Source of the DNA: an uncultured Pseudanabaenaceae cyanobacterium
GTDB lineage: Bacteria > Cyanobacteriota > Cyanobacteriia > Pseudanabaenales > Pseudanabaenaceae
Length of the DNA: 64,000 bases
Direction of reading: 5' to 3'
Assembly: GCA_937927915.1 (NCBI GenBank)
Contig: CALGKB010000001.1
Coordinates: 62,001 to 126,000 of the forward strand
This document shows positions 17,777 through 64,000 of the stretch, in pieces. How positions within the stretch are numbered: position 1 is the first letter of the stretch; each line of letters opens with the position of its first letter. The notes beneath the pieces were generated by a model. It searched no databases. It was not told the origin of the DNA and saw only the letters and a list, made by a program, of their open reading frames with translations. The translations under genes and the position numbers were made by a program.

Positions 17777-18427
17777 GTGGGACAGAGAAAACAGCGTTGG
17801 TTAAATGCAATGAGTTTTTTTATCACGATCGGTTTGTTATTATTTACTCCCGCTTGGTATGTCAGTTTTGTGACGCAAAAATTACGGCACACCCGCATTG
17901 AGGACGTTAAGCCCACAAAGGTGGGAATTGTCTTTGGGGCAGCAGTTTATGCCGATGGTACACCCACACCCATGCTTGCTGATCGGTTAGACCAAGCCAT
18001 TAGACTATATGAGCGGGGTAAAATTCAAAAAATATTGATGAGTGGGGACAATGGCAGTGCTGACTACGATGAAGTGACTACTATGCAACGCTATGCCATC
18101 GATCGGGGTGTCCCTCCTAGTGCTATTACCTTGGACTATGCAGGATTTTCCACCTATGACACTTGTTACCGCGCCCGTGCTATTTTTGGTGTGGAAGAGG
18201 CGATTTTATTGACGCAATCTTTTCATTTACCCCGCGCTATTTATACCTGTGAAAAACTGGGTATTAAGGCACAGGGTCTGGGCACAGAGGATGGCAGTAA
18301 ATATAACCGATCGAGCTTAAACTATTACCAATTGCGGGAGACAATGGCGATTATAAAAGCCCTGTGGCAAATACATATAGTGCGAGCAAAACCAAGACTG
18401 CTGGGCAAATTTGAAGGCATCAAGTAA
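17777..18427 (+). CDS. YdcF/SanA family (DUF218) membrane protein
   Basis: About 216 residues. A transmembrane helix near the N-terminus is followed by GIVFGAAVYADGTPTPML, ILMSGDN, and TYDTCYRARAIFG...QSFHLPRA, the DUF218 core. Family members act at the envelope (SanA affects the vancomycin barrier in enterics). The start is a choice: TTG at 17762 is the longest, but GTG at 17777 has GGAG 9 bases upstream, and ATG at 17810 is also in frame. I favour 17777. Confidence 0.8.
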   Translation: MGQRKQRWLNAMSFFITIGLLLFTPAWYVSFVTQKLRHTRIEDVKPTKVGIVFGAAVYADGTPTPMLADRLDQAIRLYERGKIQKILMSGDNGSADYDEVTTMQRYAIDRGVPPSAITLDYAGFSTYDTCYRARAIFGVEEAILLTQSFHLPRAIYTCEKLGIKAQGLGTEDGSKYNRSSLNYYQLRETMAIIKALWQIHIVRAKPRLLGKFEGIK

Positions 18428-57984: not shown

Positions 57985-58698
57985 ATGGGTAGCTATAGAA
58001 TTGATGTGCTGGGGGTTCCCCTCGATATTGCCACTGACTACCTGCAACTAGCGCAGTCCCTAGGGAGCGGGCACATAGTCACCCTCAATGCCGAAATGGT
58101 CATGGCAGCGCGGCGGCACCCCCGCCTGAGGACGGTTATTCAAGGGGCAGAACTGGTAGTACCCGATGGGGCAGGCGTTGTTCTCTACGGAAGATGGCGT
58201 GGGCACAAGATCGATCGTTGTCCTGGTATTGATCTGGCTGCCCGTTTACTAGAGTCCGCTAGGGAGAAGGGGCAAAAGGTCTTCTTTTTGGGTGCTAAGC
58301 CCGATGTGATTCCCCGCACGGTCGCCCATTGGCAACAGCAACTCCCCTCCCTGCAGATAGTAGGCTGGCATCACGGTTATTTTGACGCCCCAGCAGAGGG
58401 AGAAATCCTACAAACCCTGCACCAGACCCAACCCCACCTCATCCTCGTTGCCCTAGGTGTCCCTAAACAAGAGATATGGATTGCCGAACACCGATCGCTA
58501 TGTCCCCATGCTCTGTGGATGGGCGTAGGCGGTAGTTTTGACATTTGGGCAGGTGTAAAGAAGCGGGCGCCCCAGTGGTTAGGCAGAATGCACTTAGAAT
58601 GGCTCTACCGTCTGCTACAAGAACCCAGCCGCTGGCGACGGATGGCAGTTTTACCCCAATTCCTATGGCTCGCCCTCTGGGACAGAAAGATTGGCTAA
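57985..58698 (+). CDS. WecG/TagA/CpsF-family glycosyltransferase
   Basis: 237 residues. IVTLNAEMVMAARRHP, VVPDGAGVVLYGR, RCPGIDL, VFFLGAKPDV, LVALGVPKQEIWI and WMGVGGSFDIWAG, then RMHLEWLYRLLQEP are the GT26 signature. It transfers a sugar (ManNAc(A)-like in studied members) to a lipid-linked acceptor for surface polysaccharide at the membrane. Divergent from ndhB by 54 bases. The last 36 bases overlap the WYL pseudogene. Confidence 0.92.
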   Translation: MGSYRIDVLGVPLDIATDYLQLAQSLGSGHIVTLNAEMVMAARRHPRLRTVIQGAELVVPDGAGVVLYGRWRGHKIDRCPGIDLAARLLESAREKGQKVFFLGAKPDVIPRTVAHWQQQLPSLQIVGWHHGYFDAPAEGEILQTLHQTQPHLILVALGVPKQEIWIAEHRSLCPHALWMGVGGSFDIWAGVKKRAPQWLGRMHLEWLYRLLQEPSRWRRMAVLPQFLWLALWDRKIG

Positions 58699-59600
58699 TC
58701 CTGCTTGCACAACCCTACAAATCCTATGCCGTAACCAGTCGGGGAAGAGAATCTGAAAATTGGGCAGATAGCGCAAAATACGCTGTTGAAACCAAAAAGA
58801 GCTAATCTCTGCACTCTCTACAATGACATACTGCTCTGTCTTTTCTACTATTTTTTCCTGGGGACGGCGAGGTTGGTAATTTTTCAAATCCCCCTGTAGA
58901 CGGTATTGCACGGTCAGGGTGGGAAATTCCCGTCGATACCAGGGAATGTCGGTACTAGTTCTAATTTCCTGTATGCGATCGAGACGAAAAGAAAAGTTGC
59001 GGGCAGTGGGGTCTTCTTGCCAGTTACAGGTGACAGGGGGAGTAGGCACATGGGCAAAGAGAAAGAGAATGCCGTCATGTAAATGTAACTCCGCTAAATC
59101 CACATCCCAAATCTGTTCTTGCCCCTTGGAGTTGCGATAACGGATGACAAATCTTCTTTTACTGGCTAAGTGATCGCGCAGAATGGCTATTTTCTCCCGC
59201 AGGGAAGGGTCGCTGTAGGGAAGGGGGGGTCAAAGTTGCTAGAAAAGCAGGGTATTGCCACTGGTTCGCTACTGTGCAACAGAATTTCCCCCAGATGGGC
59301 ACCCTCCGCTACAAAACCTAAATTCTCCAAGAGCTTACTCCCCAGCGCAATCGCCTGTTTCTGTTCCTCTGACAGGAGGAGGGGCAAATTGGTTTTACGC
59401 AAGATGTAGGGAGTCTGGTTACTGCTTTTAATCTCACAACCCCGATCGCGCCAGCGTTTGATACTGCGACTGATCTGCTGATAGATGTCTTTTGAGTGGG
59501 GAAACTCAGGTTGCAAAATCGCCGCCAATTCCTGCCGCCTGTAGGGACGCTGGCATAGAAGCTGCAATAACCGCAGATCAAACTCCATTGTGTTACTCAT
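58663..59600 (-). pseudogene. WYL-domain regulator of the type I-D CRISPR-Cas locus, frameshifted
   Basis: Two frames that together make one about 312-residue protein. The N-terminal part (MEFDLRLLQLLCQRPYRRQ-type helix-turn-helix, ATG at 59600 or 59588) is open to a TAG after the tract GACCCCCCCTTC (C7 at 59229-59223, minus strand). The C-terminal part (RRFVIRYRNSKGQEQIWDVDLAELHLHDG, then IPWYRREF, VVQAGLANL) is the WYL domain in the other frame. The second frame has a TGA immediately before the C7 run, so the shift must lie in or just after it. Eight C would restore one frame. Such WYL genes stand next to type I-D loci in cyanobacteria and repress them. Divergent from cas3. Confidence 0.85.
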
Positions 59601-59620
59601 GGTATCACTTTTTGATAACC
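59601..59620. promoter_or_regulatory. Imperfect inverted repeat, candidate operator of the WYL regulator
   Basis: GGTATCA and TGATAACC flank a short T-rich spacer; the half-sites match except for one extra T. It lies in the short gap between the divergent WYL gene and cas3, where a repressor for both promoters would bind. Inference from position and symmetry. Confidence 0.45.
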
Positions 59621-59669
59621 ACCCCAAATTTTACAGTAATAGAATAGCTCCAGATTTAGGAATGGCGTT

Positions 59670-61788
59670 ATGGAGATCAAAGTTAAACCCATCTACTCCC
59701 AGTTGAACTATGCCCCCTGCCCCCTGGGCTGTAGCGATCGGTGTGTAGTCAAGGACAAAGCGCCCAATTTAGGTGTGTCTCCTTGTCCCCTATCCCGTCA
59801 TCAGGCAGAGACCTGTGGGGCGGTTTTGAGCAAGGAATACGACATCATCATCAACATTGCTCGCACGGGAGATGGCAAATCTTTAGCTGGTTATTTACCC
59901 GCCTTACTCAATAAAGATTTTCGGATCATGGGTCTTTATCCCACGATCGAGTTAGCGGCTGACCAGGCAAGGCAACAGGAGCACTACCATCATTCATTTA
60001 TTTGGTTTTAGTCCTGAAAAGACAAGGCAGAGAGTAGATCATCTCTACGGCGCCGAACTAGCCAGACGCAGTGCCGGTGGCTCCAAGTTTGTGGAATTGC
60101 TGACAGCGATCGAGCAGAAATCCATCTTGTTAACTAATCCTGACATCTTTCATTATATTACCCATGTCTTCTACCGCAACCCTGCCTACAGTACTCAGAA
60201 TCTCCTTGCCAGCTTATCCCGTTTTCCCGACCTGTGGCTAGTGGATGAATTTCATATTTTTGCTGCCCACCAAGAAACCTCCTTGTTAAACAGTATCTTT
60301 CTACTACGTGCCCTCTATCAAAACACCGAGCGCCCCCGCCAATTTTTATTTACCACCGCCACCCCTAAGGAAAGTTTCATCCATTTACTGGAGAAAACAG
60401 GGCTGCGGATTAAAAAGATAGTAGGGAATTATACAGATGTAGACCATGCTGGTTATCGCATCATCAGTCAAGAGATTAGTTTACAATTTATCCCTCTGAG
60501 TACCGACCAAAACGCCGTAGACTGGCTACTGGCAAATGAAACAACCATTGCCACCTATCTACAAAGAGAGAAGAAGGGGCGAGGACTAGTTATCCTCAAC
60601 TCTGTCGCTGCCATTAGAAGACTAACTAACAAACTGCAAATACCTGACGTAGAAATTATCTGTATCACCGGTCAAATTGACAGCAGACAAAGAGGCGAAA
60701 ATCGCCAAATATTACTTAACAGTGAAAAACCTGTCTTAGTCCTTGCTACTTCCGCTGTGGATGTGGGTGTGGATTTTGCTATCCATCTCCTTATCTTTGA
60801 AGTTAGCGACTTATCTGTCTTTATCCAACGTCTTGGTCGTTTAGGTCGGCATCCAGGTTTTAGTCATTACCAAGGAATTGCTTTGATCCCCTCCACCATG
60901 CCCTGGGTAGAAGCAAGACTGCAAGAACAATTCACAGTAGGAGCCAGTTACGATCGCTCAGAGTTGCAAACCAAAATGGCAGAAGTCTTGACAGACAAAT
61001 GGGAATACGACGAGTACCGCAGCCGCTGGGGAGGCTTGCAGATGGAAGGGTTAGTAGAGCAGTTATTTACCCTCAAGGAAGACCAATCGGTTTTACGCCC
61101 TGTCATTGATGACTTACTAGAGAGTCTGCAACCCATTTATGGTGAAAGCATGGACCACTATCGCAAACAATGGCATGCCATCGGACAAAAGAGAGAAGGA
61201 AAACAAATACAAGAGGAACTATTACAGTTTCGTAGTAGCTGTGATTTACAGGTAGGAGTGTGGGATGGACAGCAGTTTTACACCTACGACCTCCTGCGGT
61301 TATTGCCTCATATTAAAGGCAAAGTAATCAATCGGGAGGAGTTCTTGACTCAAGCGAAGACACGGGGTTTTACAGAGTATGAATTTGCAGCAGACTATTT
61401 AATTGGCTACATCAAAGTAGAACAATGGCTAGACAGGCGACAAGATATAAATCTCTTTACATCCCAAGATAGTGAAGACCTGAAAACCTGTGAACTGACC
61501 CTCATCAGCAATCTACACATTGATGGTCCCTTGCAGGGAGAACTAAGGAATATCATCAAGTCACATAAATTGCTAGCATTCCTTGTTCCCCTGGGCAGAC
61601 GGGGGAGCGATCGGTATTGGCAGTTAGTAAGGACTCTACGCTTACCTGCTACTTTTGGATTGTATAAATTATTTACATCCGACAACCAAGTACTTGCCTG
61701 TACTTTTAACCAAAATGCATTAACAATGGAGGCATTGAAGTATAGAATAGCTAAAGAATTTTGTCGCCATCAGTCTTATATTTACTAG
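59670..61788 (+). pseudogene. cas3: Type I-D CRISPR helicase Cas3, frameshifted near the 5' end
   Basis: About 705 codons in two frames. Part one (59670-60011) has a Cys-rich start (CPLGCSDRC, CPLSRHQ) and Walker A RTGDGKSLAG, then stops at TAG. Part two is open from 59956 to 61788 and continues without its own plausible start: ILLTNPDIFHYI, DEFH box LWLVDEFHIF, LFTTATPKE, SAVDVGVDF and QRLGRLGRHPG. The shift must lie between 59956 and 60011 and needs one base skipped. Cas3 of type I-D lacks the HD nuclease, which is in Cas10d. Ribosome-binding AGGA precedes 59670. Sequencing error or real decay cannot be told apart here. Confidence 0.85.
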
Positions 61789-61797
61789 GAGGAAACC

Positions 61798-64000
61798 ATG
61801 ACACTATTACAGTCACTGCTACTCAAGAGTGTGGGCGAGGAAGAGATAGTATTACGCCAGTTTATCGACAAGGTATTACCCTGCGTCGAGCAAAAGTTTA
61901 GAGATGTTTTAGCTTTGGGAGGTACCTATATCTATCATCGGGAAAAGTTGCAAAAGAAATACGGCAGTAAAAAGTCCCCCCAGGAGATAGAAGAAATAGC
62001 CCGCTCCTACAGCAATAGACCAGAGCAAAGTCTATTATTCCATGTTGTGAATGGGCTAATGATCGCCTGGAATCTTTCCAAATACCTAGATGAACCCTTG
62101 ACTGAGGTAGAACAACGGCTGCTTTGCCTAGCTATGATTCTGCACGACTACGGTAAGTTTTTGTACGACCTGGAAGTAGAAGAACAAATTACAGCGGCAA
62201 CAGTAGATAGAATTATAAATATTTGTAGGCAACTAGGGGAGGAATTACACTTTGGAGATTTTTGGTCTGACTGGCATTTCTACCTGACGGATATTGCTTA
62301 TCTTGCCCAAAACACCCAGGCAAAAGTAGGGGCAAATTTGGTAGGTAGTAACTGGCAAAAGGTAGCGAAATTTGGCAGCGATGACCGTCGCCTCGATAAT
62401 CCCCTCCGTCACCTATTGAGCTTTGGAGATGTTGCTGTCCATCTAACTAACCCTGGTGAAATTCTCACAGATACGATCGGAACAAGATTAAACGAGCGGT
62501 TACAGTACTTAGGTATAGACAGGAGATTGTCCTATCATCGGTTACGGGATAGCAGGGGAATTATCACTAACATTATTCACAACCAAGTCATTTCCTATCT
62601 CCGTAACAAAGGTTATGAGCCAATCATTTTTCTTGCCGACGGAGTAGTTTATCTGACCCCGTTAGAAAATTCTAATGTGGATATGACAGAAATTAAATGC
62701 CGGATTTGGCAAGCCATAGAGAGGACACTAAGCGAGAAATTTAGCAAGGGACAGATTGGTTTTGTCAGGGATGGTAAGGGACTGAAGTGTGCACCTTTCG
62801 TCAAAGAATTACTGTCCTCAAAAGCATTGCTGGAGTGCTTACCTCAGGTAGTAGAGTTAAAAGTGGCGAATGTGGAAAAACCCGCTACCGAAAAACGTCT
62901 GCAAAAGATGCCCACCTTTGAGAAAAACGAACTGGAACAATATGCAGATATTCGTGCCGATCGGGTAGCTGAATTTATTATCTTTGCACAGCGAGAAGTA
63001 TTCAAAAACAATTCGCAATTTACCAAGGTGGTTTTGGATTTTCTGGGCTTATCTAACCAGTTCAAAGAAGAAGATACCCAGATAGAGAGGGGAGGAGTTA
63101 ATTATGGCTGGTATTGGGTAGCTGCTCACTATGTGCGCCAAAATGCTACCTTAGATAATCAGCAAATGTGTGCTAGATTAGCAGATTTAGCACGACGTCT
63201 TGTAGAGTTATGCCAGCAAGAGTCGAGAGCTACAGAATACACAAGGCAGGAATTTGATCAATACTTGGACAGTTACCTAGAGGTTAGGGGGAGTCTGGTA
63301 CTGAACAAAATTTTTCTGCAGGAGCTGACAAATTACATAAGAAGTAAAGCAGAAAAAAATAAGCTTCTATGCTCTCTCAGTTCTGCTGAGTTTGTAGGGG
63401 TAGAACAACTAGATACTGTAGTTTTATTTAAGCCCCAACAGTACAGTAATAAAAACCCCCTGGGTGGTAGTCGATTGAAGAGGGGGATTTGCCGTATCTG
63501 GGCATTGGAAATGATCTTGAGACGATCGAACTGGGCAAATGATGTGAACCGACTAAAGGATGGCAAGCTTGTGTTTTTGTACATCTATCCTGCCTATACC
63601 TATTCTCCACAGTTGACCAAAGTAGTTAGGGTTTTAGTGTCTGAGTTCAGGCGTATTGATTTTAAGAAGGTGCGGGAGCATTGGATTGACAGTCGCCATC
63701 AAATTGATGCAATCGCCAAGGGAATACAGATAGCAGAAGATGGGCAAAATGATAGTAAATACTCTGAGAAGGAGTTGCCATTTTTAGCTATAATTCCCCT
63801 TGCTACTAAAAGTGATACGCTAAGTGGTAGCTGGGTAGAACCCATTTTACTCTCTCTCAGTTTGCCCCTGTTTTTGGGTGTAAAAGTTGTTGCGTCATTT
63901 AGTCCTATTCCTCTGTATAATAGTGATAGGGAACTACAAGAATATGTCAGTATAGACGGGGGGTCAGTGTTCGCTAATCTATTAGGATATGGCTCCAACT
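61798..64000 (+). CDS. csc3: Type I-D Cas10d (Csc3) with HD nuclease, cut by right edge
   Basis: 734 codons, fully open to the window end. AGGAGG overlaps the cas3 stop just before the ATG. The HD site is intact: FHVVNG (His) and AMILHDYGKF (His-Asp) at about residues 82-128. Later segments are palm/helical, with few recognisable motifs. Cas10d carries the DNA-cleaving HD domain of type I-D effectors, acting with Cas3, Csc1, Csc2 and Cas6. The lack of frame breaks contrasts with the two genes before it. Confidence 0.85.
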   Translation, partial: MTLLQSLLLKSVGEEEIVLRQFIDKVLPCVEQKFRDVLALGGTYIYHREKLQKKYGSKKSPQEIEEIARSYSNRPEQSLLFHVVNGLMIAWNLSKYLDEPLTEVEQRLLCLAMILHDYGKFLYDLEVEEQITAATVDRIINICRQLGEELHFGDFWSDWHFYLTDIAYLAQNTQAKVGANLVGSNWQKVAKFGSDDRRLDNPLRHLLSFGDVAVHLTNPGEILTDTIGTRLNERLQYLGIDRRLSYHRLRDSRGIITNIIHNQVISYLRNKGYEPIIFLADGVVYLTPLENSNVDMTEIKCRIWQAIERTLSEKFSKGQIGFVRDGKGLKCAPFVKELLSSKALLECLPQVVELKVANVEKPATEKRLQKMPTFEKNELEQYADIRADRVAEFIIFAQREVFKNNSQFTKVVLDFLGLSNQFKEEDTQIERGGVNYGWYWVAAHYVRQNATLDNQQMCARLADLARRLVELCQQESRATEYTRQEFDQYLDSYLEVRGSLVLNKIFLQELTNYIRSKAEKNKLLCSLSSAEFVGVEQLDTVVLFKPQQYSNKNPLGGSRLKRGICRIWALEMILRRSNWANDVNRLKDGKLVFLYIYPAYTYSPQLTKVVRVLVSEFRRIDFKKVREHWIDSRHQIDAIAKGIQIAEDGQNDSKYSEKELPFLAIIPLATKSDTLSGSWVEPILLSLSLPLFLGVKVVASFSPIPLYNSDRELQEYVSIDGGSVFANLLGYGSN

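Follow-up and report, generated by a model that had tools for sequence, protein, structure and literature searches.

The question raised by this locus is why the gene of a WYL-domain regulator, standing beside the type I-D CRISPR-Cas operon of a small-genome cyanobacterium, is coded in two reading frames, and whether this split reflects a regulatory device, an error in the data or the decay of the system. The evidence is best accounted for by ordinary CRISPR erosion, in which the break in the WYL gene is one of three lesions, and the type I-D locus is probably at an early stage of this process. The window, i.e., the whole stretch of 64,000 nucleotides that was analyzed, corresponds to G000:C1:62001-126000 of a 2.4-Mb genome (G000; 13 contigs, 98.9% complete), and coordinates given without a contig or locus label refer to it.

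The WYL gene lies on the minus strand, from a start at 59600 to a stop at 58663, and its frame changes at a run of seven C, which reads GGGGGGG on the plus strand at 59223-59229. The N-terminal half (59187-59600, minus strand) comprises 126 homologous residues, which by analogy would represent the DNA-binding region and a linker, followed by an out-of-frame tail ending in TAG (59189-59187); the C-terminal half (58663-59220, minus strand) carries the WYL and WCX domains, and its frame has a TGA (59232-59230) immediately ahead of the C run. In the ORF listing the two halves appear as minus-strand frames at 59187-59627 and, from the first listed start, at 58663-59103. The C run, the TGA and the TAG agree with the original prediction, as does the restoration, by a script adding one C to the run, of one frame from the start through the stop at 58663. 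The congeneric genome G002 has an intact homologue (L005:10365-11312, 315 aa) with six C in frame, of which residues 1-126 match the window in one frame (71%) and residues 129-315 in the other (68%); since both halves are homologous to this single intact protein, they belong to one gene, whose two frames are joined by a 1-nt change alone. At the junction, 5 nt are present in the window where 6 are expected from G002. A slip of a single base, as had been proposed, is therefore confirmed, while the identity of the lost base as a C is the simplest reading and a likely one, not a certain one: the codons following the conserved Pro-Pro differ among relatives, so that C is not a unique solution, and a base may instead have been lost within the TTCCC that follows the run.

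The assignment of the protein to the WYL family relies on profile searches, in which the G002 protein matched the PADLOC WYL profile (4.9e-14) and the Pfam WYL (3.2e-05) and WCX (3.6e-06) profiles, and the two halves from the window matched PADLOC WYL at 3.5e-08 and 1.5e-04; with Pfam, the WCX match of the C-terminal half fell below the cut-off of that profile, and the N-terminal half gave no WYL match. This WYL gene was found in 2 of 38 genomes (G000 and G002) at the level of the order (E<=1e-20) and in 24 of 388 at the level of the class (E<=1e-12). The divergent arrangement of WYL and cas3' is common to the window and its relatives: cas3' is encoded on the strand opposite to WYL in 20 of 26 loci other than the window, within fetched flanks of about 1.5 kb or less, and was not seen within such flanks in the remaining six (L095, L097, L100, L113, L114, and L115). 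The region between the two genes (59601-59669) contains an inverted repeat, GGTATCA-ctttt-TGATAACC, partly common to G002, which is a possible candidate for the operator of the WYL protein. In these respects the window resembles Synechocystis PCC 6803, where passages of two reports describe Sll7009, a WYL protein adjoining cas3' of a type I-D locus, as a repressor, and its knockout as leading to more mature crRNA (PMC6604393, PMC10212523). The repressor role expected for WYL regulators at cyanobacterial I-D loci is thus reported for Sll7009; the gene of the window is likened to it by position and family, not by comparison with the Sll7009 sequence, and differs from it in being split in two frames.

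The divergent neighbor of the WYL gene, cas3' (59670-61788, plus strand), is frameshifted too, which had been overlooked. Its N-terminal piece (59670-60011), containing the first helicase motif of Cas3d, ends at the frameshift stop, and the remainder of about 597 residues (59995-61788) lies in another frame; correspondingly, residues 1-110 of the G002 protein match one frame and residues 108-704 another. The junction (59992-59999) reads CATTCATT, a repeat that G002 does not have, and the net gain, calculated from the coordinates of the pieces, is 4 nt, so that the lesion looks like a 4-nt tandem duplication. The break falls inside the match to the N-terminal DEAD domain, of which the short piece retains only the first part, and the gene thus encodes no intact helicase. 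The next gene, cas10d (csc3), is open from 61798 to the end of the window at 64000 on the plus strand and is whole (968 aa) at G000:C1:123798-126704; cas10d, csc2, csc1, and cas6 are intact, each in a single frame and with 98-100% of the G002 length.

The third lesion lies beyond the window, at G000:C1:129350-129705 (L003:17350-17705), where about 1.5 kb comprising the greater part of cas4 and the whole of cas1 has been deleted. Compared with G002, 1,511 bp are missing from cas4 to the first base of cas2; the cas4 match ends after 21 codons, cas1 is absent, and cas2 is kept in a frame that can start at TTG, leaving no Cas1-Cas2 integrase. The array has seven repeats and six spacers, the first and fourth of which (L003:17948-17983 and 18165-18200) are identical, a sign of duplication within the array. 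The cores (30-34 nt) of the five distinct spacers gave no exact match in viral_contigs. Self-targeting was considered as a cause of the decay and rejected, since in the 656 kb searched (27% of the 2.4-Mb genome) the spacers occur solely within their own array. The locus of G002 has its genes in the same order and a near-identical repeat, and the proteins of the whole genes retained in G000 are 68-86% identical to their G002 counterparts, but in G002 WYL, cas3', cas4, and cas1 are intact, and its locus possesses all nine genes, eight exact repeats and a ninth degenerate copy.

Read together, these observations probably trace back to three events: a base dropped out of the divergent WYL repressor gene at a C run liable to slip, cas3' was extended by 4 nt through a tandem duplication, and a deletion took cas4 from codon 22 together with all of cas1. 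What remains is Cas10d, Csc2, Csc1, Cas6, Cas2 and a short array, predicted to be incapable of helicase-driven interference and of spacer uptake via an integrase of its own; ligand-controlled repression has probably been lost as well, and any derepression would find hardly a target beyond Cascade. The helicase is part of the interference model set out in the relevant passages for type I-D systems (PMC10212523, PMC6604393).

The most serious competitor of erosion is an error of sequencing or assembly, i.e., a single-base miscall within the run of C plus a second error in cas3', with both genes whole in the organism. Homopolymers are the usual place of single-base errors, and both genes look constrained. 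The frequency of frameshifts was surveyed by comparing 656 kb of G000 (27%) with 980 kb of G002 (most of one contig), using 304 G002 ORFs of at least 150 aa with a match of at least 50% identity in the surveyed part of G000. Adjacent pieces in different frames were found for six of them. Four require deletions of 19 to 1,393 nt, as calculated from the coordinates of the pieces, with one, a 380-aa gene, read in detail (G000:C1:196874-197930, L017; broken where about 60 nt, apparently flanked by short repeats, have been deleted). The sole frameshifts of 1-4 nt on the G000 side are those in WYL (-1) and cas3' (+4), two neighboring genes whose adjacency by chance is estimated at about 2/304. When G000 ORFs were in turn compared with G002, four of the 305 gave a flag; one of these is an ORF-start artefact at the overlap of csc2 with cas10d, leaving at most three small breaks in G002 by their coordinates, and small indels are consequently not unique to the I-D locus. 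Runs of at least seven C or G are ordinary in this genome, with 311 in 656 kb and, by arithmetic, about 0.4 expected per gene of the length of WYL, and the conserved coding part of G000 (286 kb) contains 140 such runs unbroken, a count that was made within matched frames by construction and therefore measures unbroken runs. Since only two frameshifts of 1-4 nt were found, in neighboring genes, and 140 runs are unbroken, generic sequencing error explains the data poorly: random error would have to strike just twice, both times in neighbors and once as a 4-nt repeat outside any homopolymer, beside a 1.5-kb loss of cas4 and cas1 that affects the same operon independently. An error in the data is, on this balance, unlikely.

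If the lesions are genuine, they are young. The dN/dS ratios between G000 and G002, rough because dS is high, are 0.04-0.15 for all genes of the I-D locus, with 0.146 and 0.149 (0.186/1.245) for the two WYL halves and 0.044 and 0.062 for the two cas3' pieces. Where at least 90% of outgroup sequences agree at a column, departures specific to G000 and to G002 number three and three in WYL (86 columns), and one and three in cas3' (73 columns). Neither dN/dS nor conserved-column departures reveal any sign of relaxed selection in the genes of the G000 locus, which dates the lesions as recent relative to the split between G000 and G002, unless, as the error explanation would have it, they are not real; the same absence is what error would produce.

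Erosion of WYL-linked I-D loci is common in other cyanobacteria. When 24 such loci were compared and five truncated where a contig or the fetched sequence ends (G305, G114, G333, G123, and G234) were set aside, 13 of the remaining 19 had all nine genes and six were partial (G000, G197, G050, G369, G162, and G277); WYL is broken in two of the six partial loci vs. none of the 13 full ones (Fisher p about 0.09, in a small sample with two cases). The closest parallels to G000 are G197 and G050, cyanobacteria of other families in which cas4 and cas1 are damaged or lost and the Cascade genes remain. In G197, cas4 is reduced to 34%, cas1 and cas2 are absent, and WYL is cut at residue 153, so that its C-terminal half is missing as well; in G050 (L132:9241-10260), cas4 is at 38%, cas1 at 29%, cas2 is whole and an array of 25 repeats is present. 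Unlike in G000, cas3' is intact in both of them, and WYL is intact in G050. In G369 (L130:942-4716) and, by tblastn, in G162, WYL is followed by csc2, csc1, and cas6 only, with neither cas3' nor cas10d; the 20 kb fetched from G369 contain no CRISPR array, and csc2 of G369 seems to be devoid of an internal stretch. The locus of G277 has 65% of cas10d and no later genes. Among the nine-gene loci, that of G083 (L134:8848-9650) has cas6 in two frames, with the break close to consecutive Lys codons.

Among the explanations that take the WYL break as real and functional, one supposes that the N-terminal half has been retained as a ligand-blind, DNA-binding repressor. This half and its start codon are intact, and the unrelated G197 likewise has an N-terminal half only, beside intact cas3' and cas10d; the C-terminal half of the window, however, has accumulated no excess of changes, and the break is thus too recent to reveal selection for a short form, which makes such a repressor very improbable. 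Comparably little credence can be given to the idea that the locus has been stripped to a derepressed type I-D Cascade, free of helicase and integrase, with a fixed array, which would perform crRNA-guided binding or single-strand cutting and leave immunity to a type I-B system. Type I-D Cascade alone is described, in a passage of one report, as binding dsDNA, with its Cas7d cutting ssDNA (PMC10212523). The I-B system of G000, on contig 5 (L069:2238-12505), is apparently complete, as judged from its genes: it comprises cas6, cas3, cas8, cas7, cas5, a cas4-cas1 fusion and 16 repeats, and the open frame after the fusion is cas2-like by reading, with no profile score. Its array has 13 distinct spacers out of 15. 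Contig 3 (L008:1258-3151) harbors fragments of a type I-E system, with pieces of cas3e, cas6e, and cas1e, so that the genome would seem to combine an older I-E relic, a freshly eroded I-D locus and a working-looking I-B system.

The original prediction also held that loss of the regulator, or its phase-switching by slippage, would change CRISPR expression, and here it is not borne out, the same locus carrying the frameshifted cas3' and the cas4-cas1 deletion. Slippage of the C run toggling the repressor within the population is hardly credible. Seven C could slip, and three intact homologues (L092, L095, and L102) have an in-frame run of seven at the same motif. Aligned at the conserved Phe-x-Pro-Pro motif, all 21 WYL homologues other than that of the window are in a single frame; within the surrounding 90 nt, the longest C or G run is seven in those three, six in L088, L096, L105, and L108, and at most five in the other fourteen. 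The run overlies the motif and codes for its Pro-Pro, other aligned homologues having runs of 2-6, so that C runs are common and in frame there: the site is prone to slip, but no switch tract is conserved. Moreover, the run length is ordinary for G000 and, cas3' being broken as well, the switch would govern an incapable system. Another way of making full-length WYL protein from the split gene, programmed ribosomal frameshifting by -1 at the heptamer C CCC CCC, can likewise be dismissed almost entirely. The heptamer has the X XXY YYZ phasing relative to the zero frame, and slipping back by one base on it would yield the product obtained with an extra C; but the downstream RNA has no stable structure (z +0.50, with 143 of 200 shuffles folding equally well), all 21 aligned homologues do without the shift, and cas3' would be left unexplained.

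Literature searches returned no report of a pseudogenized WYL gene at cyanobacterial type I-D loci, nor of pseudogenization of CRISPR-Cas with cas3 and CRISPR loss, and nothing on-topic by title on frameshifted or degenerate cas genes in cyanobacteria or on homopolymer phase variation of cas genes.

Erosion of the type I-D locus is of mild interest for the coincidence of the loss of a likely repressor with that of helicase and integrase. It corrects a tempting reading, given that a broken repressor near a CRISPR system resembles a regulatory switch and that here the helicase and the integrase are broken too; damage to a WYL gene is to be judged alongside the state of the entire operon. The two congeners, one with an intact and one with a freshly eroded locus, form a pair suited to studying in which order CRISPR genes are lost and with what effect.
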